A DNA stretch of 64,000 bases from a bacterium (lineage in GTDB: Bacteria > Myxococcota_A > UBA9160 > UBA4427). Under the pieces are notes generated by a model. It did not search any database, was not told the origin of the DNA, and worked only from the letters and a program-made list of their open reading frames with translations. The DNA lies in the NCBI GenBank assembly GCA_024742285.1, contig JANSYR010000002.1:310001-374000 (forward strand), read 5' to 3'. Below, one piece after another: positions 41,223 through 46,921 of this stretch. Position 1 is the first letter of the stretch; every line of letters begins with the position of its first letter. Made by a program: the position numbers and the translations under genes.

Positions 41223-42098
41223 TTGCTCAAATACCTGGGGCAGCTCATGTCGGATCTGGTGGAGTTCTTCGACTCCCGGTTCGACCCATTCCGCGACACG
41301 CTCGACATCCTGCTCGTCGCCGGGGGCATCTACTGGCTGCTCCTGCTGATCCGAGGCACGCGGGCCATCCAGATCCTGGTGGGCCTGATCGTGTTGATCG
41401 CGCTCACTCTGGTGTCCCAGCTGCTCGAGCTCGCCGCCCTCGGTCTGATCCTCGAGCGCCTGCTCGAGCCCGCGGTCGTGATCATCGTGATCCTCTTCCA
41501 GAACGACATCCGGCGCGCGCTCGCCCGGGTGGGGCGCGGGATCTTCCCGTCGTTCTCGAACGCCCAGGAGATCCAGGTCGTCGAGGAGATCGTGCGGGCA
41601 GCGGGCTCGCTCTCCCAGCGCCGTCATGGGGCGCTGATCGTCCTCGAGCGCGAGAGCAACCTCGGGGATCTGATCGAAGCCGGGGTTCCCGTCGATGCGG
41701 CGCTCTCGAAGGAGCTGCTCTCGAGCATCTTCCAGCCGTCGTCGCCGATGCACGACGGCGCGGTCGTGATCCAGGAGGGCCGCGTCGCGAGCGCCGGCTG
41801 CATCCTGCCCCTCACGCTCCGGACCGACCTGCCGGAAGGGCTCGGCACCCGTCACCGCGCCGCGGTCGGCATCACCGAAGAGACCGACGCCCTCGTCGTC
41901 GTCGTGTCCGAGGAGACGTCGAGCATCTCCGTCGTCCTCGGCGGCGAGATGCTGCGGGGCCTCGACGCGCCGCGCCTCCGGGTCGTCCTGCGCGACGTCC
42001 TCGGCGGCGAACGCAAGGAGCTGCCGGACGCCGGCGAAGTCATCGGCGGCCTCGAGGTGGCCGAGGAGCCCGGCTCCGGACAGGCGACCGCGAGCTAG
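41223..42098 (+). CDS. cdaA: Diadenylate cyclase CdaA
   Basis: A 291-aa membrane enzyme that makes the second messenger c-di-AMP from two ATP. Three membrane segments (about residues 28-95) precede the DAC domain, with catalytic DGA (Asp178) in SPMHDGAVVI and RHR (210-212) in GTRHRAAVGI. The C-terminal tail after about 265 is extra. TTG at 41223 with GAGGGG upstream is used; an ATG at 41247 is a possible alternative. It is followed by its regulator cdaR and by glmM, the standard c-di-AMP operon. c-di-AMP usually controls K+ and osmolyte balance. Confidence 0.93.
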   Translation: MLKYLGQLMSDLVEFFDSRFDPFRDTLDILLVAGGIYWLLLLIRGTRAIQILVGLIVLIALTLVSQLLELAALGLILERLLEPAVVIIVILFQNDIRRALARVGRGIFPSFSNAQEIQVVEEIVRAAGSLSQRRHGALIVLERESNLGDLIEAGVPVDAALSKELLSSIFQPSSPMHDGAVVIQEGRVASAGCILPLTLRTDLPEGLGTRHRAAVGITEETDALVVVVSEETSSISVVLGGEMLRGLDAPRLRVVLRDVLGGERKELPDAGEVIGGLEVAEEPGSGQATAS

Positions 42099-42182
42099 AC
42101 CGATCCCGACGCCGGGTGCGAGGATCCGGTCGTCCCGTCCCCGCCGAGACCGGTGCGGGCACCGAAAGGAGTGCGGCGAAAC

Positions 42183-42920
42183 GTGGCGTCGCGATTCGAA
42201 AACCTGAGGCCGGGCGTCTTCGTGCTCGCCCTCGCGATCAGCATCTTCATCTGGTTCGTCGCCCAGGGCACGTCGAGCGTCATTCAGTCCTTCGACGTCG
42301 AGGTCGAGCTGGTGGGCGTGGAGGACGGTCTCGTCGTGACCGACCAGAGCTCCGACGAGGTGAACGTCCGCCTGCGCGGAAGCCGCGCGGCGCTCCGGAA
42401 CCTCGACACGGACCAGCTCAAGTACCGGATCGACGCCGGGGGCGGAAAGCCGGGCGTGGCCGTCTACGACGTCGACGTCGATACGATCGACCACCCCACC
42501 GGTACGCAGTTCGTGGGTTATTCCCCCTCCAGACTGCAGGTCCGATTCGAGAAACGAGGACGCAAGGCGGTCGCCGTTCGTGCCGACTACGAAGGTGAGC
42601 CCGCGCCCGGATTCCACGTGGCGGGGGTCGACATCGAGCCCCAGAAGGTCTGGCTCGAGGGAGCACGCAGCCAGGTCATGCGCCTCAACGAGGTGGTGAC
42701 CGAATCGATCGACATCGCTGGCCTCGCCGCCAACGCCAAGGAGGAAGTCCGTCTCGTACTCGGGGCGGGCACCGTCTGGGCCGAGGACAACGCGCCGGTC
42801 CAGGTCACCATCCGAATCGAAGCCGACCCGGTTCCGGAACCGGTGATCGACCTCGAAGACGCGGATCTCGAAGACCCGAGCCTGCCCGACGAAGGTGGCG
42901 CAGCAGCAGAGCAGACATGA
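42183..42920 (+). CDS. cdaR: YbbR-domain regulator CdaR
   Basis: A 245-aa protein with one N-terminal membrane helix (GVFVLALAISIFIWFVAQG) and outside it three YbbR-like repeats: VIQSFDVEVELVGVEDGLVV, LKYRIDAGGGKPGVAVYDVD and a third around VRADYEGEPAPGFHVAGVD. The tail is acidic. YbbR proteins bind CdaA across the membrane and modulate c-di-AMP synthesis. GTG at 42183 is chosen, with AAAGGAG 11 bases upstream; a GTG at 42153 would add 10 residues that lack family character. It lies between cdaA and glmM in one operon. Confidence 0.88.
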   Translation: MASRFENLRPGVFVLALAISIFIWFVAQGTSSVIQSFDVEVELVGVEDGLVVTDQSSDEVNVRLRGSRAALRNLDTDQLKYRIDAGGGKPGVAVYDVDVDTIDHPTGTQFVGYSPSRLQVRFEKRGRKAVAVRADYEGEPAPGFHVAGVDIEPQKVWLEGARSQVMRLNEVVTESIDIAGLAANAKEEVRLVLGAGTVWAEDNAPVQVTIRIEADPVPEPVIDLEDADLEDPSLPDEGGAAAEQT

Positions 42921-42990
42921 AGCGCCGGATCCGCTCTCCACGCGAACGGAGGGTCGTGAACGAAGGGCCCGGCGCTGCGGAAACGGCAGG

Positions 42991-44379
<1,389 letters not shown>

Positions 44380-44381
44380 AC

Positions 44382-45089
44382 ATGCGCCTGGTGCTCTCTC
44401 TGGACAGCTGGCCGGTCCTCCGCGACTTCGCCGCGAGTGATCGCAGCGAGCTCGGTGCGGCGGCCAGCCTGGCCGAGCTGGCGGGGGTCGATGCGCTCCG
44501 CCTCTCGATCAACGAAGACCTCGTTCCGGTTCGTGAGACCGACGTCGACACGCTCCGCCGGGCGGCGCGCACGATGGAGCTGCGAATGCCCGTGTCGCAG
44601 AGCCTGCTGAAGATTCCGCTCGAGGCGCGCCCGGACCGGGTCGTGCTCGTCGGGGAGCGGCACGCCGAAGCGGGACAGGCGCCGCCGGTCGATGCACGCG
44701 TGGCGGGGCAGGCCCTCGGCAGCCTCCTGCGTTCCCTGGAGGATGCCGGCATCGCCGCGAGCGTTCGGGTCGCGCCGGACCTCGACGCGATTCGTGCGGT
44801 CCACGCCCAGGGCGTCCAGGACATCGAGCTCTTCACGGGACATCTCGTCGATCTGCCGGACGCGGAGCGCCGGGCAGCGCTCGTCACGCTCGGGGATACG
44901 GCGCGTCTGGCCAGCAAGCTGCGTCTCGGTCACGGGGTCGCCGGTGGCCTCGACGACCGCAACGTCGCCGAAGTGCTGGCGGCGGCACCGTCCGCCGATC
45001 GTGTCGTGTTCGGACGCGGTCTCGCCCGACGCGCGCTTCTCGTCGGCCTCGATCGCGCGATCCGCGATTTCCGCGACCGCCTGCGCTGA
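44382..45089 (+). CDS. PdxJ-like protein lacking catalytic residues
   Basis: A 235-aa TIM-barrel homologue of pyridoxine 5'-phosphate synthase, recognised by its position after glmM and by segments aligned to E. coli PdxJ: DVDTLRRAARTMELRMPVSQ, EARPDRVVLVGER, IELFTG and RLGHGVAGGLDDRNV. My manual alignment gives these changes: catalytic His45 to Ser42, Glu72 to Arg68, and substrate-contact Arg47 to Asn44 and His52 to Pro49. Only the His193 equivalent (His184 in LGHG) remains. The N-terminal NIDH substrate motif reads SLDS. It is probably not a PNP synthase; it may be a regulator or have another activity. Vitamin B6 would need another pdxJ or the PLP-synthase route. Confidence 0.75.
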   Translation: MRLVLSLDSWPVLRDFAASDRSELGAAASLAELAGVDALRLSINEDLVPVRETDVDTLRRAARTMELRMPVSQSLLKIPLEARPDRVVLVGERHAEAGQAPPVDARVAGQALGSLLRSLEDAGIAASVRVAPDLDAIRAVHAQGVQDIELFTGHLVDLPDAERRAALVTLGDTARLASKLRLGHGVAGGLDDRNVAEVLAAAPSADRVVFGRGLARRALLVGLDRAIRDFRDRLR

Positions 45090-45202: not shown

Positions 45203-46921
45203 GTGACGGCACGCGACGAGAGCGAGGGCTGGCCGAGCCCGCCGGGATCGCCGCCGGATCGGGGCGCCGGCGTCGCTTTAGGGGAATGGCGACTCGTCTC
45301 CGCGGAGGAGATGCGCGCCCTCGACGCCGCGACGATCGAGGGACGGGGGGTGCCCGGCGAGGTGCTGATGGAGAACGCCGGGCGGGCGCTGGTCGTGCCC
45401 GCGGTCGGGCTCCGCGCGCGTTCGGAACGCCCGGCCGGACCGGTCCTCGTGCTGGCCGGGGCCGGAAACAACGGCGGCGACGGCTTCGTCGTGGCGCGCC
45501 ATCTGTTCGGAGAGGGGATTCCCGTCGAGGTGGTCCTGATCGGCGATCCCGAGAAGCTGCCCCCGGATGCCGCCGCGAACTGGCGGCGCCTGGCGCCCTT
45601 CGATGTGCCGGCGCGGGCGGTCGCGCCGGAGGACGCCGTGGACGTCGTGTCTCCACGCCTCGCGCGGGCGAGCGTCGTGATCGACGCGCTCTTCGGGACC
45701 GGGCTCCAGCGGGATCTGACGGGCGGTTTCGCCGCGGTCGTCGAGGCGACGAACGCGGCGCGGGCAAGCGGCGTGCGGGTGCTCGCCGTCGACTCGCCGT
45801 CCGGGATCGACAGTCGGACCGGGGCGGTGCTCGGTGCGGCGATCCTCGCGGACGAGACGGTCACCATCGCGCTCCCCAAGCTCGGGCTCGTGCTCGAGCC
45901 GGGCGGGCGGCATGCGCGTCGGATCCGCGTCGCGCGGATCGGGATCGCCGATCCGGACCCCGACGCGCCGGATCGAGTCGAGCTGTGGAACGCGCGCGCC
46001 GCGTCGTCGCGCTTCCCCGACCGGGTCGCGGCGGGACACAAGGGCACCTTCGGGCACGTGCTCGTGATCGCCGGCTCGACCGGCAAATGCGGGGCCGGCG
46101 CGTTGTCGAGTCGGGCGGCCGCGCGCGGTGGCGCCGGGCTCGTCACCTTCGCGTATCCGGCCGGTCTCGAGGCCGAGCTCGCCGCCTTGCCCGTCGAGGT
46201 GATGAGCGCGCCGGTGGCGTCGACCGAAGAGGGCGGGTTCGCGCTGGCCGGCGAGAAGGCGGCGCTCGAGCTGGCGTCGTCTCGCGACGTGGTCGTGCTG
46301 GGGCCGGGACTCGGACGCCATCCCGAGACCGACGCGCTGGTCCGGAAGCTCCTGATCGAGGTCGATCGGCCGGTCGTGCTCGACGCCGACGGGTTGAACG
46401 CCCTGGAAGGCGCGCCGGAGCAGCTCCGGGATCGAAGGGCGGCGACGGTGATCACGCCTCATCCGGGAGAAGCCGCTCGTCTGCTCGGGACGACGACCGT
46501 AGAGATCAACGCGGATCGGTTGGGGGCGGTGCGCCGGTTGAGCGAGCGCTCCGGGGCGATCGCGGTCTTGAAGGGCGCGCGAACCCTGGTCGCGAATCCG
46601 GCGGGGCGGACGGTCGTGACGCCGACGGGCGGGCCGGCGCTCGCGACCGGCGGAACGGGGGACGTGTTGACCGGCGTGATCGCTGCGCTGCTCGCGTCCG
46701 GACTCGAGGCCCTGGACGCCGCCGCGCTGGGTGCGTGGTGGCACGGCGCCGCGGCGGATGGATTGCCCGCGAGCGAGACCGGATTCGGATTGCTGGCGAG
46801 CGAGGTCGCCGACGCGATGCCCGCGACGGCGCGGAGGATCCACGAAGCGGCGCGCGGCGGCGCGAGCGATCGGGAGGGTGGACCGGGTGACGTCCTGGAC
46901 CTTCGTTTCCCGGGACCCTGA
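45203..46921 (+). CDS. nnr: Bifunctional NAD(P)HX epimerase / ADP-dependent dehydratase Nnr
   Basis: A 572-aa metabolite-repair enzyme. The N-terminal epimerase domain (about residues 30-230) has LVLAGAGNNGGDGFVVARHL and VIDALFGTGLQRDLTG. The C-terminal kinase-like dehydratase (about 250-550) has GTFGHVLVIAGSTGKCGAGAL, VVVLGPGLGRHPET, VVLDADGLNALEG, VITPHPGEAARLLG and ALATGGTGDVLTGVIAALL. It restores hydrated NADH and NADPH. GTG at 45203 is used because GGAGG lies 8 bases upstream; the N-terminal 29 residues are an extra, low-complexity extension. It follows the pdxJ-like gene after 113 bases; acpS, common between them in delta lineages, is absent. The tail overlaps tsaE by 35 bases. Confidence 0.93.
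   Translation: MTARDESEGWPSPPGSPPDRGAGVALGEWRLVSAEEMRALDAATIEGRGVPGEVLMENAGRALVVPAVGLRARSERPAGPVLVLAGAGNNGGDGFVVARHLFGEGIPVEVVLIGDPEKLPPDAAANWRRLAPFDVPARAVAPEDAVDVVSPRLARASVVIDALFGTGLQRDLTGGFAAVVEATNAARASGVRVLAVDSPSGIDSRTGAVLGAAILADETVTIALPKLGLVLEPGGRHARRIRVARIGIADPDPDAPDRVELWNARAASSRFPDRVAAGHKGTFGHVLVIAGSTGKCGAGALSSRAAARGGAGLVTFAYPAGLEAELAALPVEVMSAPVASTEEGGFALAGEKAALELASSRDVVVLGPGLGRHPETDALVRKLLIEVDRPVVLDADGLNALEGAPEQLRDRRAATVITPHPGEAARLLGTTTVEINADRLGAVRRLSERSGAIAVLKGARTLVANPAGRTVVTPTGGPALATGGTGDVLTGVIAALLASGLEALDAAALGAWWHGAAADGLPASETGFGLLASEVADAMPATARRIHEAARGGASDREGGPGDVLDLRFPGP

Follow-up and report, generated by a model that had tools for sequence, protein, structure and literature searches.

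A PdxJ homologue with a remodelled active site is retained behind glmM in an order of Myxococcota

Directly behind glmM in a Myxococcota genome lies a gene of the PdxJ family whose product is almost certainly not a PNP synthase, a conclusion that draws on its residues and on the vitamin B6 pathway of its host in combination. The gene is part of a window of 64,000 nucleotides, by which we mean the whole stretch of DNA that was analysed (contig JANSYR010000002.1, positions 310,001 to 374,000; Table 1). Because selection preserves a gene that has lost nearly all catalytic residues of PdxJ, both in its old place and across relatives, the encoded protein very likely has a second job. We lean towards an orphaned, remodelled PdxJ that is retained as a phosphate-ligand-binding barrel in a secondary, non-B6 role.

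Table 1 Position in the window of the pdxJ-like gene, its neighbours and the altered or retained sites within it (residue changes are given as E. coli PdxJ > window protein; fractions refer to full-length copies of the window's order).
Feature	Coordinates	Strand	Evidence
Putative remodelled orphan PdxJ, 235 aa, TIM barrel	44382..45089	+	PF03740, 4.1e-32, 111.6 bits
glmM, phosphoglucosamine mutase, directly upstream	42895..44379	+	PGM_PMM domains I-IV; conserved neighbour
nnr, NAD(P)HX epimerase/dehydratase, directly downstream	45203..46921	+	YjeF_N + Carb_kinase; conserved neighbour
cdaA, diadenylate cyclase, same gene row	41223..42098	+	DAC + CdaA_N
cdaR (YbbR), same gene row	42153..42920	+	YbbR domain
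Former substrate motif, residues 6-17	44397..44432	+	Asn9>Ser6, Asp11 kept (Asp8), His12>Ser9, Arg20>Ala17
Beta2 and next loop, residues 40-49	44499..44528	+	Arg40 fixed (40/41), His45>Ser42, Arg47>Asn44, His52>Pro49
Beta3, residues 66-68	44577..44585	+	Glu66 fixed (40/41), Glu72>Arg68 (Arg 32/41)
Glu149, equivalent to Glu153 of PdxJ	44826..44828	+	Alignment; retained 40/41
Gly188-Gly189, beta7	44943..44948	+	His193>Gly in 40/41
Gly211-Arg212, beta8	45012..45017	+	His216>Arg in 41/41

ORF analysis places the ATG at position 44382 and the stop codon at 45087-45089, giving a real reading frame of 235 codons that starts 2 nt past the stop codon of glmM and is followed by nnr. An initial annotation, made from the sequence alone, had described an intact frame adjoining glmM in the position of pdxJ, and both descriptions hold. 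In all 41 full-length copies from the window's order glmM is found immediately 5′ of the pdxJ-like gene, with a tight junction in most members; nnr is the next gene wherever the contig extends that far, and cdaA, cdaR, ftsH and tsaE surround the gene across the order's copies. In the sister order, canonical pdxJ is found within an identical cdaA-cdaR-glmM-pdxJ-nnr arrangement, and the gene's position is inherited from the ancestral pdxJ. Since canonical pdxJ shares this exact gene order, position alone is no evidence for a control role in c-di-AMP or GlmM metabolism, and the possible tie to a c-di-AMP/GlmM operon raised by the initial annotation lacks specific support. One sister-order genome (G005) has a 120-aa ORF, acpS-like in appearance, between canonical pdxJ and nnr (L085:8248-8610, + strand), and two others (G001 and G002) show an equal-sized gap there; such an acpS-like ORF is missing between the pdxJ-like gene and nnr in the window.

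Sequence comparison identifies the gene as PdxJ family by descent and as the in-place orthologue of pdxJ. PF03740 is the sole Pfam family matched, far above its gathering score (24.5), and it is found in all 41 full-length copies of the order. The protein falls short of the PNP-synthase equivalog TIGR00559 (87.3 bits against a cut-off of 192.75) and scores under each of the five PRK05265 cut-offs. Clear matches in a sequence search of the PDB were confined to PdxJ entries (1.3e-20), a PDB profile search for a non-PdxJ relative returned only PdxJ entries below E 0.09, and a plasmid search gave only weak PdxJ matches. An AlphaFold model built with the 41-sequence alignment reached a pLDDT of 92.3 and a pTM of 0.89, with one weak stretch at about residues 91-100, where PdxJ has its active-site loop. 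This model, in which the PdxJ fold is intact, superimposes on E. coli PdxJ (1ho1) at 1.4 Å over 226 residues (Z 31.6; VIA-align). In a fold search the top seven PDB entries were all PdxJ (Z 29.6-31.9), after which Z falls to 19.9 for 3-hexulose-6-phosphate synthase (HPS) and other phosphate-binding barrels. Assignment as a PdxJ homologue, already proposed from the sequence, is thereby borne out by Pfam, the PDB sequence search and the fold.

The active site was compared in a 53-sequence alignment comprising the 41 full-length order copies (one of them without the N-terminal stretch), canonical sister-order copies and E. coli PdxJ. For the latter we take 14 positions to be functional, with roles following UniProt/HAMAP: His45, Glu72 and His193 are catalytic, Asn9, His12, Arg20, Arg47, His52 and His216 contact the substrate, and Glu153 is the transition-state residue. 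In this set, 10 of the 14 positions are changed in the window protein. The four replacements that the initial annotation had aligned, at His45, Arg47, His52 and Glu72, are confirmed; His193, His216 and the N-terminal substrate motif are changed too, the last as claimed, with Asp11 nevertheless kept. A tenth change, Thr102>Gly98, falls in a loop where the alignment is uncertain. Only the claim that His193 alone survives had to be revised: position 193 is Gly188, and the equivalents that remain are Asp11, Glu153, Gly194 and Gly215. The histidine of the LGHGVAGG motif lies four residues upstream of position 193 and varies even within the window's genus. His12, Arg20, His45, Arg47, His52, Glu72, His193 and His216 are absent from all 41 full-length copies.

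Gene content points to the same loss of function. In the window's own genome (6.5 Mb, 95% complete), searched for a second pdxJ and for pdxST as the initial annotation had proposed, the PdxJ-family gene is single, PdxA (PF04166) has no match, and a full PdxS is directly followed by a PdxT-like sequence with GGESTT and GTCAG motifs. Among 31 genomes of the order (this one and 30 relatives), 29 encode PdxS and one (G052) encodes PdxA. In the sister order PdxA is present in 8 of 10 genomes and PdxS in 2 of 10, and 17 more genomes of the phylum with a high-scoring PdxJ include 16 with PdxA and none with PdxS; the change in PdxJ thus follows the switch of B6 route. On this gene content, the DXP-dependent B6 route of the window's order is replaced by PdxST, with PdxA lost and the pdxJ active site dismantled. 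Continued PNP synthesis through shifted or alternative catalytic residues would draw on the four retained equivalents and the intact fold, but six key residues (His45, Glu72, His193, Arg20, His52 and His216) are gone from every member, the substrate supplier PdxA is missing and PdxST is present, so that we give this explanation hardly any credence. Compared with PdxJ, the PNP synthase (PF03740, TIGR00559; E. coli 1m5w/1ho1), the window protein shares descent, fold, length and genomic position in the phylum, but it differs in most functional positions, in its equivalog score and in having a PdxST-using host without PdxA. The one PdxA-family match among the 31 genomes of the order (L039; G052:C14:37571-38404) is perhaps a PdxA2-type enzyme; PdxS and a dismantled PdxJ are encoded alongside it in G052.

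These observations bear on how B6 pathways are read from genomes. A published survey, which relied on pdxJ presence as a signature for the DXP-dependent route, found only ten genomes with both routes, including that of the myxobacterium Minicystis rosea, and suspected their DXP route to be incomplete (PMC9997740). If pdxJ serves as the signature, genomes like that of the window could be credited with a pathway they lack.

A PdxJ-family gene occurs in 46 of the 80 genomes of the window's order (PF03740). Divergent copies overlooked by Pfam in the remaining genomes were considered and rejected, as the family's own profile (A1) detects the identical 46 genomes; none of these carriers has two intact copies. 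The other 34 genomes, among them every sampled member of genera g2, g10, g11 and g12, lack the gene, so that its role is dispensable. Canonical PdxJ has an entropy of 0.03 at the 14 functional positions against a background of 1.00, whereas the family of the window's order has 1.25 at the same positions against 1.47; by this measure the change in the active site is far beyond chance. Selection has nevertheless remained strong. A codon model for the window's genus gave a dN/dS of 0.050 for the pdxJ-like gene, compared with 0.039 for glmM, 0.028 for cdaA, 0.038 for cdaR, 0.065 for iscS and 0.082 for nnr; canonical pdxJ in the sister order gave 0.041. Pairwise counts (0.068-0.093) concur with purifying selection. 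The initial annotation had suspected selection from the intact frame, and the value close to that of glmM agrees. A decaying remnant, retained solely as a translational bridge from glmM to nnr, would fit the tight glmM junction and the complete loss of the gene elsewhere in the order, but a dN/dS of 0.05, newly fixed residues such as Lys179, Arg212 and Arg217 in 41 of 41 copies, unexpected for a spacer, and a reading frame without internal stop codons in any copy of the order have largely refuted it, and we regard it as quite improbable.

Several residues have become newly fixed in the family: Arg40, Glu66 and Gly188 in 40 of 41 copies, Pro49 in 38, and Lys179, Gly211, Arg212 and Arg217 in all 41; position 68 is Arg in 32 and Cys in 6. 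Judged by their place on the strands, Arg40 and Glu66 would face the barrel interior, two residues beneath the former His45 and Glu72, and they may simply form a core salt bridge. A beta7 Gly and beta8 Gly-Arg phosphate site, together with an Asp on beta1, is a feature of ribulose-phosphate-binding barrels such as 3-hexulose-6-phosphate synthase, KGPDC and OMP decarboxylase. The window protein resembles these barrels in all three respects and in a weak HPS profile match, and the Gly-Arg pair on beta8, which is not diagnostic by itself, is present in 41 of 41 copies. Overall it is far nearer to PdxJ (Z 31.9 against 19.9).

The main rival explanation builds on this likeness and proposes a new enzyme acting on a phosphorylated substrate, loosely HPS/KGPDC-like, with Asp8, Arg40, Glu66, Arg68 and Glu149 as catalytic residues and Gly211-Arg212 holding the phosphate. 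A charged set fixed on beta strands 1, 2, 3, 6 and 8, strong purifying selection and weak matches of 12 of the 41 members to an HPS-containing model (best 7e-4) are in its favour. However, the HPS match is weak, with TIGR03128 matched by only 1 of the 41 members and RuMP_HxlAB scoring 15 bits against a cut-off of 500; neither the window protein nor the 41 members match the OMPdecase Pfam family, and the DxKxxD motif is absent from beta3, where the window protein has E66-L-R-M-P. Arg68 is replaced by Cys in 6 of 41 copies, the fold score to HPS is barely above that of many phosphate barrels, and no adjoining metabolic gene that hints at a pathway was seen. We consider a neofunctionalised enzyme possible but rather unlikely.

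After the takeover by PdxST, the loss of PdxA and the dismantling of the active site, pdxJ has stayed in its old place under strong purifying selection. Under the ligand-binding reading that we favour, the Gly188-Gly189/Gly211-Arg212 site would grip the phosphate of a small metabolite, the remainder of which would be touched by Arg40, Glu66, Arg68 and Glu149, and the protein would most likely act in sensing or in binding a partner protein. Positions 9, 20, 47 and 102 of the pocket vary freely across the family, which weakens the case for a well-defined ligand site. The ancestral PdxJ may already have carried such a secondary role, and this would account for the retention of similarly dismantled copies in further lineages of the phylum. 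The protein might act as a regulator. A known regulator pseudoenzyme, the AdoMetDC prozyme (PMC5201418), has likewise lost catalytic residues while fold and selection were retained; it is, however, a paralogue and stimulates a partner that is itself active, whereas the window's genome has no active PdxJ left to regulate. A repurposed PdxJ, as the initial annotation had proposed, is strongly supported by order-wide conservation, by dN/dS, by a B6 gene set in which PdxS and PdxT are present and PdxA is lost, and by recurrence in other lineages.

Weak PdxJ scores flagged further dismantled lineages within the phylum. In the eight genomes of family f27, His193 is replaced by Gly, Glu72 and Glu153 are lost and His45 is lost in seven, with Asp11 and Gly215 retained; the gene is behind glmM in seven, PdxS is full in six and a fragment in one, and PdxA is found in none. 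Family f40 (three genomes) is equally dismantled and also behind glmM, and family f14 (two genomes) is partially dismantled, with PdxA present and PdxS in one. At the glmM site, two sister-order genomes (G004 and G009) carry a copy that is half dismantled (Glu72>Asp, His193>Gly, Arg20 lost). Both also encode a second PdxJ elsewhere (L091 and L089, respectively), which keeps the catalytic His45, Glu72 and His193, forms a long branch and apparently came from outside.

The dismantled copies cluster in a PdxJ tree from all columns (80/67), but topologies constrained to unite the sister-order copies, or the class, were not rejected (AU 0.29 and 0.24). When 44 active-site and loop positions were removed, the window's order and the sister order joined as the class (70/82), f14, f27 and f40 stood apart (99/91), and the G004 and G009 copies fell beside their canonical sisters, unsupported (47/0). 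The glmM tree places G004 and G009 within the sister order and f27 at a distance. Since the lineage groupings pass the AU test and the reduced tree sorts by lineage, a single origin of all dismantled copies is disfavoured, and these trees suggest that there were probably three separate, parallel losses. Family f27 has fixed other residues than the window's order, so that a second function common to both is at most a possibility.

Tentatively, PdxJ could have an unrecognised non-B6 second function across Myxococcota or more widely, perhaps linked to the glmM locus, which becomes visible once its B6 function is displaced, although we would not yet bet on it. The displacement would come from PdxST, a second PdxJ or loss of the route; the catalytic site would then decay while the protein stays, in what are probably three separate lineages. 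Among the papers searched, none ties pdxJ functionally to glmM, reports PdxJ moonlighting or describes a dismantled PdxJ. Repeated retention of a metabolic enzyme past the loss of its catalytic site allows a direct test, by comparison, of whether housekeeping enzymes have hidden functions, and canonical sisters, intermediate forms and complete losses provide a natural experiment within one phylum.

Two further genome sets show other combinations of these genes. In the three f40 genomes (G191, G225 and G252; L117-L119), PdxS and PdxA were both not found and a strongly changed PdxJ is retained; these organisms may rely on B6 salvage. One sister-order genome (G010; L090) has PdxS, no detected PdxA and a PdxJ that still bears the canonical residue at nearly every functional position and may have been orphaned only recently.
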